Notes: a model not told the origin generated them from the sequence alone. A DNA stretch of 64,000 nucleotides from Intestinirhabdus alba (GCF_009711095.1 NZ_WMJZ01000026.1:1-64000); one strand, 5' to 3'; positions 50,322 through 60,954 are shown, numbered from the stretch's first letter. Numbers and translations are program-made.

Positions 50322-52334
50322 TTATACCGGCGCTCCGGGCACCCTGTTTTCCAACTGAAGATAAAGCAAAGCTAACGTATTCAACGTGCTGATGGGCAGA
50401 TCGGCGCGCTTTTCGTGCAGCTGCCGCAGCAGGCGCGCCAGATGGGTAAAGCCATATTCCGCCAGATCGGCGGCGAGCGTCTGCGCATCCTGAAAAAAGG
50501 CGTGCTGCTGGTAGCGCAGGCCGTTGTGCAGAATATGTATTAACAGGGCGCGGCAGCGCCCAAGGCACCGGCTGGCTTCGTCGGGCTGCGGTGAGGGCAG
50601 GGCGGCGGGCAGAGGGCCGACGGCCTGCGGCTCGGCGTCCAGCACCCAGGCGCGCGTGGCGGTCATCATCACCAGCGGCTCCAGCGTCAGCTGACCGTGG
50701 CTGGCGCTGACCAGGCCGGAAACCATCACCAGCGGATCGTCACTCTGTTCCAGCAGCGCGGCCATGCGCTCAATGGCCCAGGGCGCGCTGGCGGAGGCCG
50801 CAAGCGACAGAGGCAGAATATTATTTTCCCCCTCACCGCTGTATACCCGGGCCTCCAGCCTTTGTCGGGCGGCGTCCCAGCCCTGAACGATGACGCCATC
50901 AACCGGCAAAATAAACAAATTATCGACCTGATCCAGCGGGCGTACACAGGCGGGCGGGCGCTGGCGCAGATAGTCGCGCAGCGCCGCCACCCCCGGCTGG
51001 CGCAGCGGGGCGGGAAGCTGTCGCCAGGCGTCCGGGGTCAGCGGAACGCAGCTGCTCAGGCGATGGCGCGTCTCCAGCGCCAGCTCGCCGTCGGCCCTGC
51101 GGCGGGCGGCCCGGGAGATAATCTTTCCGCCCGCCAGCGAGCCGGCCTGAAAGGTAAACAGCCGCCGTGTCCAGGCCGGGCTTTGCGCCTGCTCCGCCAG
51201 CGGCCAGCCGCGCGTGAGGTGTAAAATGTTGCCGGTATCCGGGTCGCTGAACCAGATCCGCAGGCCGTACTGCTGCCGATCCTGCCAGCAGCGCATCCCC
51301 AGCGAAACGAGGCGCAGACGATCGAGCGACGCCTCCCCGGCAACACCCAGCCCAACGACGGCGCGCCACGGCAGCGGCGGCGTCTCACCGGCGTCGGCCA
51401 GCTGCGCCATCCGCCCGGCGCTCGTCAGACGCGACTCAAGCCCCGCAAGCAGCTGCAGCAGCGGCGGATAGTGGCTGGCGCGCTGCTGAAAGGCCTCCAC
51501 GCCGTGGCGGAGCTGCGTCAGGGTGCCGGTAACCCAGCGCCAGTCGGCCCCCTGCGCCGCCCGCAGCGCGCGGGTAAACGCGGCGTCAAAGCGGATTAGC
51601 GGCTGGCTGATGCCCTCCTGCCACAGCAGGCGGCTCAACTGCTCAACGCTTTGCCGACAGGCCTCGCCTTCGGCCGTGTCGAACGGGCCGCCGCGGGCGG
51701 CGACCTTCTGGCTGCGCGTTTGCCAGACCAGATGCGTAAAGCCCGGCTGCTGCTGTTCCGCCTCGGCAAAGGCCTGGACCGCCAGCGCCACGTGCTCGCA
51801 CAGGGAACCTGCCACGCAGTCGCAGCGCGCAAAGTGCATACTGGCCCGGGAGTAAAAGCGGACGTCGCTCATCGGCAGCTTTGCCGAAGGGGGGCCGCCG
51901 GGCGGGCAGGAGAGCACGATCGCCAGCCCTTTATCCGCCAGCTGCTGCGCCCGACGGCGGGTTTCCCCGGGCAGGCTGGCCAGCTCGCTCAGCCAGTCGC
52001 CGGGCCGCCAGCGCGCCTCCTGCCCGGGCGCGGCGTCATCGGGAGCGCCCCCGGCGTGAGCGCGCTGATAGCTCAGTACCAGCATCACGCGGTGGCGGCA
52101 CATGCCGCTGGCGCTGCAGGTGCAGCTGGCCTCTTTTAGCGCCTGCCGCGGTGCCAGCCTGGTGCGCGTTCCGTCGCTGAAGGCGGCGGTCAGGGTGCCA
52201 TTCTCCTCCTGCGCCAGCTGCGGAATATTACCGCTATCCAGCTCTTTCAGGCTGCGTTTGACGAATCCGGCGTTGCTGAGCGCGATCAGCGCCTGCCCGG
52301 TCAGCTCCAGCAGTTCGGGGCGTAAAAGCTTCAT
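50322..52334 (-). CDS. yehQ: YehQ, double SWIM zinc-finger protein
   Basis: A 670-aa cytoplasmic protein, the last gene of the yehILMPQ operon. Two SWIM motifs (CxC...CxH) are visible in the first third: CTCSASGMCRH and CDCVAGSLCEH. SWIM fingers bind DNA or proteins. The rest contains no motif that I recognise, with mixed alpha/beta character and many tryptophans. The start ATG at 52334 overlaps the yehP stop as ATGA; a longer frame reaching 52358 would have a worse start. Function unknown. Confidence 0.9.
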   Translation of the reverse strand: MKLLRPELLELTGQALIALSNAGFVKRSLKELDSGNIPQLAQEENGTLTAAFSDGTRTRLAPRQALKEASCTCSASGMCRHRVMLVLSYQRAHAGGAPDDAAPGQEARWRPGDWLSELASLPGETRRRAQQLADKGLAIVLSCPPGGPPSAKLPMSDVRFYSRASMHFARCDCVAGSLCEHVALAVQAFAEAEQQQPGFTHLVWQTRSQKVAARGGPFDTAEGEACRQSVEQLSRLLWQEGISQPLIRFDAAFTRALRAAQGADWRWVTGTLTQLRHGVEAFQQRASHYPPLLQLLAGLESRLTSAGRMAQLADAGETPPLPWRAVVGLGVAGEASLDRLRLVSLGMRCWQDRQQYGLRIWFSDPDTGNILHLTRGWPLAEQAQSPAWTRRLFTFQAGSLAGGKIISRAARRRADGELALETRHRLSSCVPLTPDAWRQLPAPLRQPGVAALRDYLRQRPPACVRPLDQVDNLFILPVDGVIVQGWDAARQRLEARVYSGEGENNILPLSLAASASAPWAIERMAALLEQSDDPLVMVSGLVSASHGQLTLEPLVMMTATRAWVLDAEPQAVGPLPAALPSPQPDEASRCLGRCRALLIHILHNGLRYQQHAFFQDAQTLAADLAEYGFTHLARLLRQLHEKRADLPISTLNTLALLYLQLENRVPGAPV

Positions 52335-53470
52335 GATTGCAGATTCTCCGCCAGCCACGCCGCCAGCTCGCCGGGCGTCATGGCGGCAATTTGCGCCCCG
52401 ACGTTAACCAGCGCCTGGGCGGTGTCGTGGCAGTAGCTGGGGGCGGCGCGGCTGTCCAGCGCCGCCAGCCCGAGCACCCTGGTCCCGTTTTGTATGCACT
52501 GCTTCACTTTGTGAATTAACGTGGCCGTCGAACCGCCTTCGTAAAAGTCGCTGACCAGCACGATGATGCTTTTCTGCGGCCGTTCGATAAGCTGGCGGGC
52601 GTAGTCCACCGCCTGCGCTATCCGGGTGCCGCCGCCGAGCTGAACCTTCATCAGCAGCTCGACCGGATCGCTGACGTCGGCGGTAAGATCCACCACGCTG
52701 GTGTCGAAAGCCACAAGGTGGGTGCGGATGCCGGGAAGCTGCCATAAGCAGGCTGCCATCACCGCCGAATGAATGACGGAATCCACCATCGAGCCGCTCT
52801 GATCGATCAGCAAAATAAGCTGCCATTTTTCGCAATGGCGCTTAACGCGGCTGAAGAATTTTGGCGACGTGATATACAGTTTGCCGCGCTGCGGGTTCCA
52901 GTGCTGCAGATTGGTGCGGAGCGTATGCTTAAAGTTGAAATTGCTCGCCCGCGCCAGTCGGGAGGGACGCCGCCGGTCGCGCGTGCCGGAAAAAGCCTGG
53001 CGAACCGTGTGGTTCAGCCGGGCCATAATCTGCATCACAACCTGTCGGACCAGCCGGCGGGCGGCGTTCAGCACCTCCGGGTTCATCAGATGTTTGGTAT
53101 GCAGCACCGCCCGCAGCAGGCTTTCGGAAGGCTCAATACGCTCCAGCACCTCCAGATTCGTCACCACCTCGTCAATGCCGTAGCGCAGTACCGCGTCGCT
53201 CTCCAGCCGCTCGATAACCTGCTGCGGAAAGAGCTGGTGAATCGCGCTAATCCACCCCGGCGTCGTCAGGCTGCTGCTGCCCAGGCCGCCCTGGCGCTCG
53301 CCGCGCCCTACGCGCTCCGGATCGCGGCCGTAGAGCCACTCCAGCGCATGATCTATCCGGCGGGCGGCACCGTCCAGCGGGCCAAGTCGGCTCTCGGCCG
53401 CCTCGCCCAGAAGCAGCCGCCAGCGCTGCAGCTCGCGGGAGGCCAGAAGATCGGACAGTTTTTTTGGCAT
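52331..53470 (-). CDS. yehP: YehP, VWA (CoxE-like) domain protein
   Basis: A 379-aa protein (E. coli 378). An N-terminal alpha-helical part is followed by a von Willebrand factor A domain from about residue 210. Its metal-ion-dependent adhesion site is complete: DQSGSM, then the Thr in GGGTRIAQA and the Asp in VSDFYEGGS. VWA proteins next to MoxR ATPases serve as adaptor or co-chaperone. The start overlaps the yehM stop (TAATG) and the stop overlaps the yehQ start (ATGA). Confidence 0.93.
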   Translation of the reverse strand: MPKKLSDLLASRELQRWRLLLGEAAESRLGPLDGAARRIDHALEWLYGRDPERVGRGERQGGLGSSSLTTPGWISAIHQLFPQQVIERLESDAVLRYGIDEVVTNLEVLERIEPSESLLRAVLHTKHLMNPEVLNAARRLVRQVVMQIMARLNHTVRQAFSGTRDRRRPSRLARASNFNFKHTLRTNLQHWNPQRGKLYITSPKFFSRVKRHCEKWQLILLIDQSGSMVDSVIHSAVMAACLWQLPGIRTHLVAFDTSVVDLTADVSDPVELLMKVQLGGGTRIAQAVDYARQLIERPQKSIIVLVSDFYEGGSTATLIHKVKQCIQNGTRVLGLAALDSRAAPSYCHDTAQALVNVGAQIAAMTPGELAAWLAENLQS

Positions 53471-55749
53471 TAGTGAAGCCCCCAGCGCTGAAGCTCCGCC
53501 AGCGCCCGCTGCTCCAGCCGTTGATGTTGAACAATATGCTGCGGCTGGCAGCGAACCGGTGCCTGCAGCGTATGCGCCGGCATGGCGGCTATCTGATAGT
53601 GCTCCAGCACCTGGCGGGCCAGCTCGCCCCGCTCGCGCGGCGGCAGCCAGGCCATGGCGGCGCGCAGATCCGGCAGGGCGAGCATGAAGTCGTCGTCCGA
53701 CAGCCGGGTGAGCAGGCCGCTGAAGCCGGCAATAAACGACGGCTGGCAGGCGAGCTGGTGGCGGGCCAGCGCCAGCATACCGTGTAACGCCTCGCCCAGC
53801 CGCTGCGGCGGGAGCTGCGTCAGCAGGGCCAGCGCGGCCTGGGCGGTGGCGGTGGGGTGTTCAAGGCGGATCAGCGCGCCAAAGGCCGCTCCCCTGACGA
53901 GCGGGGCGGCCTCCCTCGCGCCGATACGTCGCTGCAGCAGGCTCCGGGCGGCGCTCAGCGAAACGCCGGGTAAGGCGGTGCCGTGATGGATATCGCGCAG
54001 AATATGACAGAGCATCTGCCAGCCGTGCAGACAGGCATGAAACTGCGCCTCGTCGATCGCGCCGCTGCTTTCACACAGCCAGAGCGCCCGATCGATCGTG
54101 GCGCAGAGGATCTTCTGCAGCACCGGCGAATCCGGCATCCCGGCGGGATCGTCCTGTCGCCACAGCGCGTACAGCACCTCCAGCGCCGCGCCCATTTCCG
54201 CAAACTGACTCTCCCTGGCGATAAGCTGCGCCAGCTGTTCCAGCAGCCGCTGGCTGAAGGCGGCCAGCCCCGCCAGCGCCGCCTGGTTCAGGCAGGCGGT
54301 CAGCGGCGCAATACCGGCGGCGTTGGTCATCCGCGCCTCCAGACGCTGGCGCGCGGCCTCAGTCAGCGTGGCACCGTAGCGCGCGGCTTCAATCAGCGCG
54401 GCCTGCTGCTCCAGCGGGCGGCTTAACGCCCAGCGCTCATCGCCGTCGCCGCTCATCGTCGTGGCGTGGCCCTGTCGACGCCGGATACCCGGAATCTCGA
54501 GGATCGCCAGCCGGTGCAGAACCTGGCTTTGCGCCAGCCCGGCGGCGTCAAAGCGGTTGAGCGTCAACTCCCCCGCCAGGACGATGCCGGTACGGGCCAG
54601 CTCGCGGGCCACCTCCTCCGGCAGCGGCGGCTGCGGCGTGCCGGGGGCCAGCTGGCCAAAGCCGCTGCCTGCCAGCGCGTCGATAAGGGTTAGCAGGATC
54701 GGGTCGGTATCCCGGTGCACAACCCCGCGATAGCTCCAGGGGAGCGGGGCGTTCAGGGCTTCTTTAATGAGCGATCCCGCGAGGGCGTCAAGCCAGTCGC
54801 TGCGCAGCGGCAGGAGGTGGCCGCGCAGCTGCGCCAGCGCCAGCGCCCGCAGATGGGCGGCGGCCAGATCGGCGGTGGAGGCGGGCTGGCGGCGCTGGCG
54901 CAGGCTGCTGAGAAGGGTCTTCAGCAGCCGTTCACCGGCCTGCTGCAGACCGAAACGCCAGCACCAGCCCTGCCACACCGGGGCGGGCATTCCGGACAGA
55001 TAGCCTGTCAGCACGTCGAGCCTTTTTTCGCTGTAGGGCGTCAGATAGCAGCCGGTGATGGCACCGGCGGAGGGCGGAGGGGGAACGGTCGGGACCTGCG
55101 CTTCACAGCCGCGCCAGAGCGCGGCCAGCGCCGGGGCATGCCAGCCGCCGCAGACCACCACCACCGGGCCGTCGTTTTGCCGCATTGCCCACGCCAGCCA
55201 GCGCGCCATAAAGGCTTCCCGCCGCTGGTTATGCTCATCCCCCTTGTCGCCGCCGCGCAGGCCTGAAAAATAGGTCTCCAGCGCCGGCTGCAGGTTAGCC
55301 TGCTGCGCTTCATCCTCAAACAGATGATCCCAGAGGGCGTCGATATTCTCCATGCCGCTGTTCTGCAGCAGATGCGAATAGCCGTGGTTGCTGCGGACCG
55401 CGGGTGACGGCGCGCTGTCGTCGGGCTGCATCCAGCCCGGCAGGTCGATAAAGCGGATCTGTGCGCCGGTTTTCCGGGCGGCCAGCAGCGCCTGCCACTC
55501 CGGAGAGAATTCAGCGAACGGCGTCCAGACACCGTGTCCCGCCGCGCTGCTCTCCTGAGGCTGGCAGTAGCTGTAGATCGCGATGGGCAACTGATGCGGT
55601 AAAAAAAGCTCGTCAAGGCGGTGATTAAAATCAACCGGACCTTCAATCAGCACGTAGCGCGGCCGTAGCTTTTCTATACGCTCTTTCACCAGCCTGGCGC
55701 AGGCCGGGCTATGGTGGCGAACGCCGATGATGAGCGGCTGTTCAGGCAC
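53470..55749 (-). CDS. yehM: YehM, DUF5682 protein with TraB/ChaN/Ere-like motifs
   Basis: A 759-aa protein, the same length as E. coli YehM when the GTG at 55749 is used; AAGGAG stands six bases before it. The N-terminus reads IIGVRHHSPACARLVKERI, then RPRYVLIEGPVDF, and further on VVVVCGGWHAPAL. The spacing of G-x-R-H-H-S, V-x-I-E-G-P and a late G-G-W-H resembles the metal-dependent TraB/ChaN/erythromycin-esterase superfamily. This is my inference. The C-terminal two thirds are helical repeats rich in Leu and Ala. Ten bases separate it from yehL. Confidence 0.9.
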   Translation of the reverse strand: MPEQPLIIGVRHHSPACARLVKERIEKLRPRYVLIEGPVDFNHRLDELFLPHQLPIAIYSYCQPQESSAAGHGVWTPFAEFSPEWQALLAARKTGAQIRFIDLPGWMQPDDSAPSPAVRSNHGYSHLLQNSGMENIDALWDHLFEDEAQQANLQPALETYFSGLRGGDKGDEHNQRREAFMARWLAWAMRQNDGPVVVVCGGWHAPALAALWRGCEAQVPTVPPPPSAGAITGCYLTPYSEKRLDVLTGYLSGMPAPVWQGWCWRFGLQQAGERLLKTLLSSLRQRRQPASTADLAAAHLRALALAQLRGHLLPLRSDWLDALAGSLIKEALNAPLPWSYRGVVHRDTDPILLTLIDALAGSGFGQLAPGTPQPPLPEEVARELARTGIVLAGELTLNRFDAAGLAQSQVLHRLAILEIPGIRRRQGHATTMSGDGDERWALSRPLEQQAALIEAARYGATLTEAARQRLEARMTNAAGIAPLTACLNQAALAGLAAFSQRLLEQLAQLIARESQFAEMGAALEVLYALWRQDDPAGMPDSPVLQKILCATIDRALWLCESSGAIDEAQFHACLHGWQMLCHILRDIHHGTALPGVSLSAARSLLQRRIGAREAAPLVRGAAFGALIRLEHPTATAQAALALLTQLPPQRLGEALHGMLALARHQLACQPSFIAGFSGLLTRLSDDDFMLALPDLRAAMAWLPPRERGELARQVLEHYQIAAMPAHTLQAPVRCQPQHIVQHQRLEQRALAELQRWGLH

Positions 55750-55759
55750 GGTCGGCTCC

Positions 55760-56848
55760 TTACGGCAGACGATGGCGGGCCTGATAATAGGCCTGCCAGT
55801 GGGCTTCTTTCCGCACGCCGACGCGCTGCCCGAAATAGCGGCGCAGGCGGGCGCGATCGTCTTCGTTATCTTTAACGATGGTGCCGGCGATGCACTCCAC
55901 CAGATCGGCAGGCTCACCGGCGCGCCCGGCTAAAAACCACGCCCTGACGCCAACGGCGTGGGCGACGTTGACCGCCTCGGCCGTGGACATCGTGGCGTTA
56001 AGCGTGTCCATGGAGGTTTTCTGGTCACCGCTGGCGCGCAGATCGCGGAAGGTGTGGATCAGCAGTTCCAGCACCGGCTCCGGGACGCAGTGCGGAATAC
56101 CGCTGTGCTCCAGCAGGCGGGCGGAGGTGCGGGCGACCAGCTCCAGCTCCTGCTGAAAATCCATAATCGGGAAGACGGTTTCGAAGTCAAAGCGGCGCTT
56201 TAGCGCGGCGCTCATCTCATTGACGCCGCGATCGCGGGTGTTGGCGGTGGCGATAATATTAAACCCGGCGCGGGCGTAGAGCTGGCTCTCCTCGCCGGTC
56301 AGCTCCGGAACGGCCATCACCCGGTCGGAAAGCATACCCAGCAGGCAGTCCTGAACCTCCAGCGGCGTACGGGTGATTTCCTCAAAACGGACAATCTTTC
56401 CGTCGCGCATCCCCTGATACAGCGGCGCGGGAATCAGCGCCTGCGCTGACGGCCCCTGGTTTATCAGCAGCGCATAGTTCCAGGCGTACTTTATTTGATC
56501 TTCCGTAATGGAAGCTCCGCCCTGAATGGTTAATCCGGCATCGCCGCAGATGGCCGTCGCCAGCAGCTCGGACAGCAGGGACTTTGCCGTGCCTGGCTCG
56601 CCGACCAGCATCAGGCCGCGTCCGGTCGCCAGCGTTACCAGCATCCGCTCCACGGCCGCAGGGCTTATGACCACCTTGGGGCTGACGCCCCGCGCCTCGT
56701 CGCCGAGAATAAAGGCGCGCGCGGCGGGCAGGCTCAGCCGCCAGCCGGGCGGGCAGGGGTGGGATTCATCCTGTCTCAGCCGCGCCAGCTCGTCGGCATA
56801 AAGTACGGAGGCCGGGGGGCGCTGAAGATGCTTTTCCGATAGTGTCAC
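55760..56848 (-). CDS. yehL: YehL, MoxR-type AAA+ ATPase
   Basis: A 362-aa AAA+ ATPase of the MoxR class. Walker A GEPGTAKS lies near residue 82, Walker B is FEEITR, sensor 1 IATANTRDRGVNEM and the arginine finger region ALKRRFDFETVFP. The start is GTG, preceded by AAGGAAGAG. MoxR ATPases act as chaperones with VWA proteins, here YehP. yehI is 34 bases upstream. Confidence 0.93.
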   Translation of the reverse strand: MTLSEKHLQRPPASVLYADELARLRQDESHPCPPGWRLSLPAARAFILGDEARGVSPKVVISPAAVERMLVTLATGRGLMLVGEPGTAKSLLSELLATAICGDAGLTIQGGASITEDQIKYAWNYALLINQGPSAQALIPAPLYQGMRDGKIVRFEEITRTPLEVQDCLLGMLSDRVMAVPELTGEESQLYARAGFNIIATANTRDRGVNEMSAALKRRFDFETVFPIMDFQQELELVARTSARLLEHSGIPHCVPEPVLELLIHTFRDLRASGDQKTSMDTLNATMSTAEAVNVAHAVGVRAWFLAGRAGEPADLVECIAGTIVKDNEDDRARLRRYFGQRVGVRKEAHWQAYYQARHRLP

Positions 56849-56882
56849 GATCTCTTCCTTAAAAGGGCGCGGGGCCAGCCCG

Positions 56883-59800
56883 TCAGGTGGCGGAGCGCTC
56901 GCGAAAAATAATCTCTGCCGCGCTCAGCGCCTCGCTGAGTGCGCGGGGCGAGAGCGGCGAAAAGGGTGCCGGTTTCCCGTCGCGGTAAAGCGTAATCGAC
57001 TGAAACTCCTGCTTTTGCCTGGCGTCAACCTGATAGTAATTCAGGCCGGGGGAGATCTGCAGAATCAGTTGGTACGGCGGCAGCGGATAGCAAAAGCTGA
57101 GTTCGCTGCTTTGCCGCCATCCCCAGGCGCGAAGGCCCAGCAGCTGCCCGCTGGTGGTTGTTTTTCCCTGCCAGCGCTCAAGGCGGCAACCCTGCGCCTC
57201 CTCTGGCGTAAGCTGTACCGTACAGCGCGCCAGCTGGCGAAAGGGCGGAATTAACTCATAGTCGGCGAAAATTTGCCCGAACGCCGCCCGTGACGCTGCG
57301 TCCATCTCCAGCGGATGAACGAGGCCCGTCAGCGCCTCCGGCGGCAGGGTGAACGGTTCGTCATGCTCATCGCAGAATTCGCCCTCCGCCGCCACGCGAA
57401 AGGCCCGCAGCAGGCGCTGCGGCTCTTCCGGCGCATAGAGGCCCCACAGCAGCCGTGGCGTCAGATGGCGGGTGAGGGGATGGTCGATAAACAGGGCCTG
57501 AAATTCGCTGAGCGACCAGCGCCGCGCGTAGCGCAGGGCGTTTTCCAGATGCGGCAGCAGGCGTTTAGCCACCTGGGCGGCATCTTTTTTCAGCCCCTTC
57601 AGCCGGGCCAGCGCTTCCGCTCCCCTGGTGGGGTCGTCCTCCGCGCGCAGGCGCGGCAGCGCTTTTTGCCGCACGCCCTGCTGGTCATAAACGATCGGCT
57701 GCAGGGATTCATTAAATTTCACGGTGAAGCGGCGGGGGCCAAAATCAAACGTCAGCGCCTGGGGATCGTCCAGGCCCAGCGTCGGCGTCAGCCGGTCCTC
57801 CAGCTGCGCCGCGCTCAGGCCGCGCGCTTTGGCCGCTTCCTGAAGGTAACGCGCGGCGCTCTCGCGCAGTGGGCGGGATTTCGCCCGCCCGGCGATATGG
57901 TGCAGTTGCAGCAGCGCCATATCGCTGCCGATGCGGGCCAGAACGTTCAGCCCGCTGGCGGCGCGGGCGGATTTACTCTCCTGCGGCCAGGCAAGGATCA
58001 GGGGCGTCAGATCGCGCACGGTGCTCTCATCGCCGAAGTACCACAGCGCAGGGAAAACCCAGTTCTCTTTCGACGGTGCGGCGGCGTTTTGCCAGGCGCT
58101 GAACATATCCCAGGCGAAGGCGGCCAGCGTCTGCGGCTGGCAGGCGGCTTTTACCTCCTTCAGGCCGCAGTAAACGCGGTCGCCCCGGGAAAACCGCAGC
58201 ATCTCGCCGATGATCTCCAGCGCCTCGTCCGGCAGCGGCCGATCGTTGCTCTTCAGCCGCGGCCTGCGCCAGCGGGCGGGCTGCCAGAAGTCGGGCGCTT
58301 TGGGTATGCGGGCGGGATAGTGGTCCTGCGGCGTCTGATTAAGCCATTGCTCCAGCGCCGGCCATAGCTGCGGCGCGTCCCAGCGGCGGGTTACCGCCTG
58401 CAGCAGCCCGGCGTGCCCCTGCTGGTACAGCAGGCGCAGGGCGTTAATAGCCGCCTCGCGATCCTCGCCCGCTTTGCCGAACGCCAGCGGGATAAGCGCG
58501 ACGGCGGCATGTTCCGGCCACTGCAGCAGCCACTGGCGGGCAAGCAGGCTGTGCGCCTGAAGACGCAGCCAGGCGCGGGCGACCGGCTGCGCCAGCGTCG
58601 TCGCCCCGAAATGGATCAGCACGGGAAAGAGGAGATGAGGCTGACGTTGCAGCGCCAGCGGCAGCGTGGGCAGAGCGTCAAGACCCAGCACGCTGAACAG
58701 ATAGTCGGCACCGACGTGGTTGAAGCCCTCTTCATGAATAGCGTGCCAGCATTCGAGCGCCATCCGTCGCGGCAGGTGCGCCAGCAGCCAGAGATTCCAC
58801 GTGCTGGTAGAGAAATCGCTGTGTTTAAGATGTTGCCGCCATGCCTGAATCAGCGCAGCGCCGTCGCCAGCCGCCAGCGCCGCTTCTCCGGCCAGTAGCG
58901 CCGGCTCCTGGCTGGAGCTGGCCTGCACGAAATCATCCACTCTGCCCTCCAGGATGACCTGTTTAAAGAACCAGGCTTCTTCTTCGAAGCCCAGCTCTTT
59001 GAGGAGGCGGTAGCCGCCCTTCAGCCGCAGACGCTCGGCAAAGGGCAGATTGTTAAAATAGCGGGCGGGCCTTTGCGCCGCCAGGGCCTCCTGCTCGCCG
59101 GGGAGCCAGCGCTCCTGCGGGGGCACCTCCAGCGCGGGCAGATCAAAACGCGGGATGGCGGCTTTTTTCTTTTCTCTCCGCCACGGCGGGGTCAGTAAAA
59201 TAGCGGGAAGGTCCTTGCTGGCCGCAACGAGGGATGGCGAAGACTGCGGGCGGGGCGTCAGCTGCTTCAGCGCCCGATCGCTCAGCCAGGGGCGCACGCG
59301 CCCGGCCAGCTGCGGGTCCCGGGCAAGCAGCGTCTGCAGCAGAGTGCGCCAGCGCTCCTCCCGCGCCTGCAGTTGTTTGTTATCCACAGGCCGATCTCCG
59401 GGCCAGGGCGGCGGTTCCGGCAGCGCCAGCAGCTCCGCCAGCGCTGCCAGCGCCGCCTCGGGAAATTTTCGGGCGAACCGCTCCACCCGCAGCCAGGCAG
59501 CTTTGCTTTTGTCCGCCGCCAACAGCAGCAGCCGTATCGCCTGCGGATGGTTGATTTGCCCCACCAGGCTGCCGCAGCCCTCCCGGTGGGCATACGGCGT
59601 TAATCGTGAGATTGCCGCTATCCCCTGCTCGCGCAGCAGCGCCGCGCAGGCGGCGTAGCCGTGGCGGTTTTCGCAAATTACTTCGCTGCCCGCGCGGTCG
59701 GTGAAAATATCCAGCTCCCGGTCCCGCTCCAGGCTGGCCAGCGCGGCGGGGTCGGTGGCAACGGCCTTTAGCCACTCTCTTGACGGCAGATTACGAGGCC

Positions 59801-60722
59801 CAGCGCAGCGCGCCGCGACGGCATTGGCGACCTCTGGCCTCTCCGGCAGCAGCAGGGCGATAAACGGCTGCCGGTAGAGCGGAACCGCCGGAAGCGCGGC
59901 GACGAGCCTGTCGGCGCAGCGCTGCCAGATGCGATCCTCCGCCAGCGACAGGTGCTTGCGCAGGCGCAGATCGAAGTCATTACAGGCGTCAGAGCTAAAG
60001 TTGTTTTTGCTCTGATCCGGATGGGAAAAGGCAATATGAGGCGGGCAATAGGTTTGTTGCCACACTGCAATATTTTGCCGGGCAAGCACCACCTCAGTGG
60101 CATATTCAATGCCGTACCGCTGGACGATTTCATCCTGTAGCTCGCTGCCGTCGCTTTTCCACAGGCGCGTGAGCGCCGCCATCGCAAGGGGCGTCAGCGA
60201 GTCGTCAGCCGCCTCTGCCTCTGTCCAGCGAATGGCCTGAGCAATGGCCTGCTGCCACTCGGGAAGGCACGCTTCATAGCTCCATACCAGGGGCTGAACG
60301 GGCTGATAGCGGGAGAGCATCTCGCTATTCAGCCGCTGAAAGCGGCTCTCTGTAACCGGTGGTACGGGTTCCCCCGGCCAGCGGCGATGGCTTAACGGCT
60401 GTTTACCTTTTTTTAAACTCAGCGCAAGCTGAGCGTCGTCCGCCAGCCACGGGGGCGTGAGGCCGGAGGGCGCGGGCGGTGGTGAAGGCTGGCCGGCAAC
60501 GGGGGGCTGTTCAGACGCCTTATCTTCAACGTAGCCTTTGCGGGTTTTTTCAGTAATCAGCTTCAGTTCGGCGTTGCTGGCCGCCGCCGCGTCGGCAAAG
60601 GTTTTAATCTGGCTCTGGCCGTTCGTGCCGACCTTCCCCCAGCGTAGATGCAGCTCGTTATCCTGCTGCGCGACCGCCCAGAATTTATGCGATTTTTCAT
60701 CCTGACAGATAAAGATTTTCAT
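56883..60722 (-). CDS. yehI: YehI (MolR), WGR-domain and DUF4132 giant protein
   Basis: A 1279-aa protein, longer than E. coli YehI (about 1210 aa). The N-terminal WGR domain (about residues 1-70) contains KFWAVAQQDNELHLRWGKVG; the WGR domain is best known in poly(ADP-ribose) polymerases, where it contacts DNA and RNA. A Pro-rich linker at about 70-95 leads to long helical repeats, and the C-terminal part has the DUF4132 type. The old name MolR (molybdate regulator) is not supported by sequence. The ATG at 60722 has AGGG at a good distance; the ATG at 60728 directly abuts it. First gene of the cassette. Confidence 0.9.
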   Translation of the reverse strand: MKIFICQDEKSHKFWAVAQQDNELHLRWGKVGTNGQSQIKTFADAAAASNAELKLITEKTRKGYVEDKASEQPPVAGQPSPPPAPSGLTPPWLADDAQLALSLKKGKQPLSHRRWPGEPVPPVTESRFQRLNSEMLSRYQPVQPLVWSYEACLPEWQQAIAQAIRWTEAEAADDSLTPLAMAALTRLWKSDGSELQDEIVQRYGIEYATEVVLARQNIAVWQQTYCPPHIAFSHPDQSKNNFSSDACNDFDLRLRKHLSLAEDRIWQRCADRLVAALPAVPLYRQPFIALLLPERPEVANAVAARCAGPRNLPSREWLKAVATDPAALASLERDRELDIFTDRAGSEVICENRHGYAACAALLREQGIAAISRLTPYAHREGCGSLVGQINHPQAIRLLLLAADKSKAAWLRVERFARKFPEAALAALAELLALPEPPPWPGDRPVDNKQLQAREERWRTLLQTLLARDPQLAGRVRPWLSDRALKQLTPRPQSSPSLVAASKDLPAILLTPPWRREKKKAAIPRFDLPALEVPPQERWLPGEQEALAAQRPARYFNNLPFAERLRLKGGYRLLKELGFEEEAWFFKQVILEGRVDDFVQASSSQEPALLAGEAALAAGDGAALIQAWRQHLKHSDFSTSTWNLWLLAHLPRRMALECWHAIHEEGFNHVGADYLFSVLGLDALPTLPLALQRQPHLLFPVLIHFGATTLAQPVARAWLRLQAHSLLARQWLLQWPEHAAVALIPLAFGKAGEDREAAINALRLLYQQGHAGLLQAVTRRWDAPQLWPALEQWLNQTPQDHYPARIPKAPDFWQPARWRRPRLKSNDRPLPDEALEIIGEMLRFSRGDRVYCGLKEVKAACQPQTLAAFAWDMFSAWQNAAAPSKENWVFPALWYFGDESTVRDLTPLILAWPQESKSARAASGLNVLARIGSDMALLQLHHIAGRAKSRPLRESAARYLQEAAKARGLSAAQLEDRLTPTLGLDDPQALTFDFGPRRFTVKFNESLQPIVYDQQGVRQKALPRLRAEDDPTRGAEALARLKGLKKDAAQVAKRLLPHLENALRYARRWSLSEFQALFIDHPLTRHLTPRLLWGLYAPEEPQRLLRAFRVAAEGEFCDEHDEPFTLPPEALTGLVHPLEMDAASRAAFGQIFADYELIPPFRQLARCTVQLTPEEAQGCRLERWQGKTTTSGQLLGLRAWGWRQSSELSFCYPLPPYQLILQISPGLNYYQVDARQKQEFQSITLYRDGKPAPFSPLSPRALSEALSAAEIIFRERSAT

Positions 60723-60954
60723 GGCCATCCCTGTGCATACATCCAGCTTTTAAGTGATGCTAACAGCTATTGCTGGCCGTGGCGCAATAAGGAATGGAGA
60801 AAGCGTAATTTTCAGATTATATAAAGTGAAACCGCTGGCGGGGCGGCCTTTGAGAGCGTCAATAACGCTTCAGGAAGAGGGGAGGGGGCTGAGAATAGCT
60901 ATGGGTAAAACGTTAATCACAAAAAGAGAAAAGCTGATTTCCCTTTTGCCGACC
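60723..60954. other. Promoter region of the yehILMPQ operon
   Basis: About 230 bases between the metG 3' hairpin and yehI. It must hold the promoter for the five-gene operon on the minus strand. The section 60760-60850 is AT-richer than its surroundings. No operator palindrome is evident. Confidence 0.4.

Follow-up and report, generated by a model that had tools for sequence, protein, structure and literature searches.

The window analysed here comprises 64,000 nucleotides of Intestinirhabdus alba (GCF_009711095.1, NZ_WMJZ01000026.1:1-64000), and the system under study is its yeh operon, a cassette of five adjoining minus-strand genes, yehI, yehL, yehM, yehP and yehQ, occupying positions 60722 to 50322. 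All five open reading frames (ORFs) were confirmed, with junctions of 34, 10, -1 and -4 bases, as a preliminary description of this DNA had proposed, and they are flanked by metG (63107-60993) and yehS-btsR-btsS, the same position as in Escherichia coli. Pfam profile searches likewise agree with the domains assigned in that description (WGR/DUF4132, MoxR AAA+, DUF5682, VWA and SWIM), and the key motifs are intact, as it had stated: Walker A, the metal ion-dependent adhesion site (MIDAS) and two CxC...CxH fingers are all present.

On the minus strand, to which all features described here belong, yehI (60722-56883; ATG start with a ribosome-binding site) encodes a WGR-DUF4132 protein of 1279 amino acids (aa) (Pfam WGR 1.6e-17, DUF4132 1.4e-42). 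Its WGR domain (60516..60710; PF05406, 68.8 bits; nearest PDB chain 2ra8) is the sole WGR in the window genome, while the DUF4132 domain (57117..57677; PF13569) covers residues 1018-1204 of the 1281-aa ORF. The following gene, yehL (56848-55760), encodes a MoxR-family AAA+ ATPase of the YehL subfamily (362 aa; AAA_5 1.2e-32) that is 86% identical to E. coli YehL, with the Walker A (GEPGTAKS) and Walker B regions intact; Walker A, RFEEITR and LKRRF are kept across relatives, and the nearest PDB relative is Midasin. The DUF5682 protein encoded by yehM (55749-53470; 759 aa, GTG start; PF18934 2e-92) was modelled by AlphaFold2 with a predicted local distance difference test (pLDDT) score of 91. 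A CoxE-like VWA protein with a complete MIDAS is encoded by yehP (53470-52331; 379 aa; VWA_CoxE 1.1e-61); this site reads DQSGSM, and DxSxS is found in 80/80 relatives. Finally, yehQ (52334-50322; 670 aa; PF04434 7e-4) encodes a SWIM zinc-finger protein in which the CxC...CxH motif occurs twice; its score of 19.5 lies marginally below the Pfam cut-off of 19.6. The motif is present in 71/71 relatives and doubled in 30 of them. Ratios of nonsynonymous to synonymous substitution rates (dN/dS) of 0.07-0.32 for each of the five genes, relative to Klebsiella grimontii and another family member (L144), indicate purifying selection on the five proteins; in the comparison with E. coli, dS is saturated.

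YehM was found to contain a domain that the preliminary description had overlooked, a Tiki/TraB-like alpha/beta domain formed by residues 1-250 (55000..55749), in which H12, E36, E178 and H204 (of GGWH) are invariant. Across 45-51 DUF5682 sequences H12, E36, G201 and H204 are invariant, the G of the first motif being frequently P. Profile comparison of this N-domain with TraB by hhalign gave 94.4% (E 8.6e-8, 188 columns), against at most 0.3% for reversed, shuffled, VWA and MoxR controls, while the GumN-type subset alone gave 3.8% only. The motifs of TraB and YehM align in order (GTAH with GVRH, a catalytic-type Glu 24 residues on, ERD-xxM with RE-xxM, and GAGH with GGWH), and sub-threshold Pfam matches among 45 DUF5682 sequences included 15 to ChaN and 3 to TraB. 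A sequence search of the PDB with YehM returned nothing related, and since full-length YehM gave solenoid matches only against PDB folds, the N-domain was folded alone. The resulting AlphaFold2 model (pLDDT 90.7) has TraB family proteins (7w5z_E) as its top Foldseek matches in the PDB, with a probability of 0.98 but otherwise weak scores, the remainder of YehM being largely helical. Tiki-type enzymes have been proposed to hydrolyse esters and peptides with a His-Glu pair (PMC6254334), and the YehM domain is probably a hydrolase, either peptidase or esterase. YehM thus shares GX2H, the following Glu, RE/ERD-xxM and the second GX2H with the Tiki/TraB superfamily (TraB, GumN, ChaN, erythromycin esterase), but differs from its members in the fused, mostly helical region of ~500 residues and in being tied to a MoxR-VWA pair. 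The window genome also carries a TraB/GumN-type ORF of its own (L269, G000 contig 1, 105595-106299), which contains one in-frame TAA.

A predicted LexA-type operator, AGCTGGATGTATGCACAGGG (CTG-N10-CAG), lies at the head of the operon (60729..60748), where it overlaps the ribosome-binding site of yehI. Scored with a position weight matrix (PWM) derived from 15 LexA sites of E. coli, it is the top site of the 64-kb window (14.7, the runner-up reaching 11.5), and its position matches that of the LexA box of E. coli molR, a gene listed as LexA-regulated (PMC11039860, PMC4576408, PMC3978071). Equivalent sites occur in E. coli (AACTGGATAAAATTACAGGG) and K. grimontii (GGCTGGATAAAAACACAGGG), each the best of its own locus, with positions of -26 to -27 relative to the start codon, and a fourth genus (L144) has a near-perfect box 125 nucleotides (nt) upstream, with a score of 20.6. 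Altogether, the operon head holds the locus-top site in 6/13 enterobacterial loci, two of which (L149, L150) are less certain because their sites end in CAT and not CAG; among 300 column-permuted PWMs, such heads numbered 0.42 on average and never more than 4. The signal appeared in the PWM and clade-wise tests alone, no enrichment being seen when LexA-type motifs with one mismatch were tallied across the full set of loci, and actinobacterial LexA, alpha-proteobacterial LexA and Firmicutes boxes occurred in the loci at or near chance. By its operator, the operon in the window is thus predicted to belong to the LexA (SOS) regulon. As a separate observation, CGAACAAATGTTTG lies ~162 nt upstream of the DUF4132 gene of Clostridium ganghwense (L123), is the unique best site of that locus and matches the Gram-positive LexA consensus exactly.

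To place the cassette among bacteria, a YehL alignment was scanned against 84,980 species, yielding 589 confirmed relatives, 80 of which were kept for the locus counts. Co-occurrence of the five genes had been chosen beforehand as the check on their being a coherent system with a MoxR-VWA pair, and they were found together in 56/80 loci, in the order I-L-M-P-Q in 46, which sustains that claim. In 68/80 loci yehL is accompanied by one or more of the remaining four genes, and in 61/80 by a VWA gene. The hosts are Pseudomonadota, Actinomycetota, Myxococcota, Planctomycetota, Bacillota, Spirochaetota and Verrucomicrobiota, to which a plasmid search added Deinococcota and Bacteroidota. The yeh cassette is, therefore, a genuine module common to at least seven phyla, beyond chance and not peculiar to the window genome.

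A second arrangement (type A), SWIM-DUF5691-MoxR-DUF5682-VWA, was detected in independent loci and on Deinococcus and Hymenobacter plasmids; in the Hymenobacter copy the DUF5682 gene is fragmented and a VWA gene is not annotated. Its SWIM protein is homologous to YehQ also outside the finger (hhalign 94.6%), while no homology was detected between DUF5691 and DUF4132 (hhalign 0.4%). WGR occurs in 32/74 DUF4132 loci and is, consequently, optional rather than core; it was rejected as a universal component, and the proposal that it defines the system as a nucleic-acid sensor is not supported, other loci having DUF5691 instead. The core consists of MoxR, DUF5682 and VWA plus the SWIM protein, with an exchangeable fifth protein, either DUF4132 or DUF5691.

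Regulation of the module in two further clades also points to DNA damage. The mycobacterial DNA-damage response runs mostly through LexA-independent, PafBC-dependent P1 promoters with the motif TTGTCRGTG-N8-TANNNT (PMC5656591). Sufficient upstream DNA was available for 18 actinobacterial loci, and in 10 of these the highest-scoring P1 site falls at the head of the operon, on the operon strand. With 200 letter-permuted motifs, the average was 0.43 heads and the highest count 6, none reaching 10; these counts are not fully independent, because some loci are close relatives (Lentzea). Perfect 12/12 matches were found in five actinobacterial loci, all on the operon strand and unique per locus, and in no non-actinobacterial locus. 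The lowering of MoxR1/MoxR2 in a pafBC mutant concerns different genes and was not used. In Deinococcus deserti, ddrTUVWX is a five-gene operon of unknown function that runs from Deide_18730 (SWIM) to Deide_18690 (VWA CoxE-like), carries a radiation/desiccation response (RDR) motif and, with an induction by radiation of >5- to 10-fold, is among the most strongly induced genes (PMC5552922). From the ends of this operon and its counterpart in D. taeanensis, ordered SWIM-DUF5691-AAA-DUF5682-VWA, it was identified as a yeh-type module. It resembles the window operon in joining SWIM, MoxR, DUF5682 and VWA in one operon, and is itself DNA-damage-induced, but differs in having the SWIM gene first, DUF5691 as fifth protein and DdrO/IrrE instead of LexA as regulator; the window operon has no DUF5691, WGR-DUF4132 taking its place. 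In D. radiodurans, DRA0166 (DUF4132) and DR2173 (WGR) go up on DdrO depletion (PMC8533742). LexA, PafBC and DdrO, three DNA-damage regulators that are non-homologous, thus point at one module, and the link to DNA damage that the preliminary description had guessed at gains regulatory evidence from three clades; that description, borne out in part, had missed the LexA box and the identity with ddrTUVWX.

In E. coli, molR-yehI-yehL-yehM-yehP-yehQ is the positional and sequence orthologue of the window operon, between metG and btsR. The E. coli locus differs in its two or three DUF4132 paralogues, in the additional yehK and yehR and in a gap before yehL, whereas in the window a single WGR-DUF4132 gene leads straight into yehL. 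By DNA, yehL-yehM-yehP-yehQ are present in 5174/5426 E. coli genomes (~95%). In K-12 MG1655 (L289 5475-9270), molR has been split into yehF, which holds the WGR portion, and yehH, a pseudogene; the annotated yehQ spans 614 aa, versus ~667 aa in other E. coli strains. The K-12 reference strain is, thus, without an intact LexA-controlled head gene, and work on K-12 may have missed the module because this first gene is broken there.

Several known systems share part of this composition. RavA-ViaA, a chaperone pair, resembles YehL-YehP as a MoxR AAA+ protein and VWA partner encoded in one operon, but belongs to another MoxR subfamily (RavA versus YehL, PMC3893208), lacks DUF5682, SWIM and DUF4132 and is under RpoS control. 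Midasin (Rea1) similarly combines an AAA+ ring and a MIDAS domain for client removal or remodelling, although as a single giant eukaryotic protein that works on pre-60S ribosomes. The MoxR-vWA ternary conflict systems (PMC7159879) share with yeh a MoxR-vWA core plus a third component; however, Pfam found none of their VMAP, iSTAND, FtsH or beta-propeller third components in the five yeh proteins, the bpMoxR match being sub-threshold (E 0.01), and the paper describing them names neither SWIM, WGR nor YehL.

MoxR-VWA pairs act by remodelling clients. A motor, a hydrolase, a zinc finger and a repeat protein, all made upon DNA damage, are most simply read as a protein-unfolding or -cleaving machine of the damage response, and the yeh operon probably encodes such a DNA-damage-induced, ATP-driven protein-processing complex. 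LexA bound at the operon start would repress it, and SOS induction would release all five proteins together. YehL, as a MoxR AAA+ ring, and YehP, with its VWA/MIDAS, would then act as motor and client adaptor, on the pattern of RavA-ViaA and Midasin, and the Tiki/TraB-type domain of YehM would act on substrate unfolded or presented by this motor. YehI, a large repeat protein (DUF5691 elsewhere), and YehQ, through its SWIM finger, may guide the machine to where it acts, which is probably damaged DNA or DNA-held proteins. We infer, accordingly with these roles, that the five proteins form one physical complex with hydrolase activity, DNA targeting and a client; for the latter, DNA-trapped proteins would be an attractive but hypothetical candidate.

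Some observations weigh against this scheme. In absolute terms, the fold match of YehM to Tiki proteins scores poorly (E 4e-3, template modelling score 0.36), the LexA matrix draws on 15 E. coli sites, and the RDR-motif match in D. taeanensis is weak (12/17, tied). Several enterobacterial loci (L145-L148, L106, L119) lack the operator, and none was recognised in the beta-proteobacterial and xanthomonad loci. In addition, 7/11 E. coli strains, K-12 included, have at least one broken gene among molR, yehI, L, M, P and Q, which suggests a dispensable system; the proposal that the operon is kept under selection holds for the window genome, against this breakage in E. coli.

The lack of operator sites in many clades would suit a general stress chaperone complex for which DNA damage is one input of several, with little said about the client, and MoxR proteins are indeed tied to many stresses (PMC3893208). 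Nonetheless, separate recruitment by LexA, PafBC and DdrO would then be coincidence, and the D. deserti operon ranks among the genes responding most strongly to radiation (PMC5552922), so that this explanation is quite unlikely. The repeated breakage in E. coli, the plasmid copies and the patchy distribution of DUF5682 (15/399 phylum genomes) would rather fit an SOS-triggered anti-phage or conflict system, in which YehM would be the effector, killing or disabling the cell, and YehI/YehQ would do the sensing, particularly as a conflict role has been proposed for other MoxR-vWA ternary systems (PMC7159879). On the contrary, PADLOC matches none of the five proteins, and its ~11 matches among 143 flanking ORFs (a raw count without background rate), several of them to generic families, indicate no clear defence-island setting. 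The module has, moreover, no close relatives in viral contigs, holds a fixed position between metG and btsR in Enterobacteriaceae and is carried by nearly all of the E. coli genomes counted above. A conflict role is, therefore, rather unlikely, and the defence function once suggested for the operon finds no backing. Carriage by phages was rejected, the best viral relatives reaching ~29% over short stretches.

A further alternative, maturation of a metalloenzyme or cofactor as by CoxD-CoxE or NorQ-NorD, draws on the CoxE-like VWA family being the closest to YehP and on the common role of MoxR proteins in maturing enzyme complexes (PMC3893208), and it would fit the old link between molR and molybdate. 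However, no metalloenzyme recurs among the flanking ORFs, the regulators in three clades are DNA-damage regulators, and the molybdate genes of D. radiodurans are unresponsive (PMC8533742), which makes maturation improbable.

Beyond the DNA-damage-induced processing complex here preferred, a bolder reading would join yeh and ddrTUVWX into one ancient damage-response module, in which an AAA+ (MoxR-VWA) machine with a Tiki-type peptidase and DNA-directed subunits clears DNA-trapped proteins and which LexA, PafBC and DdrO recruited independently. This extension is speculative and, as it stands, rather unlikely; if true, removal of DNA-trapped proteins would be, in its logic, the bacterial equivalent of DNA-protein-crosslink proteases. 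Taken one by one, ddrTUVWX, the YehL subfamily of MoxR and the control of molR by LexA are already known, and in the literature searched, where subscription papers are under-covered, no paper was found that joins the three or places DUF5682 in the Tiki superfamily, nor any that names DUF5682. Three loose ends, namely an oddly molybdate-named LexA target, a functionless MoxR subfamily and a radiation-induced Deinococcus operon, are thereby brought into one testable DNA-damage module, and the predicted active site of YehM offers a target for point mutations.

Some additional features of the loci deserve description. In 12/80 YehL-family loci (L090-L092, L094, L095, L097-L099, L101, L104, L107, L109) YehM, P, Q and I are all absent, and in most of these YehL sits directly after an unrelated gene of ~760 codons; the YehL subfamily appears, thus, to serve a second, different system. 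In many actinobacterial loci (L054, L062, L070, L072, L085, L087) 2-4 tandem DUF4132 paralogues precede yehL, which suggests that the variable subunit has expanded. ADP-ribosylglycohydrolase genes account for 2/143 flanking ORFs and are possibly of interest because WGR is a PARP-associated domain. Finally, a chromosomal segment extending from yehI to mlrA is found on L175 (NZ_CP103756.1), an IncF conjugative plasmid that also has blaCTX-M-15 and IS26.

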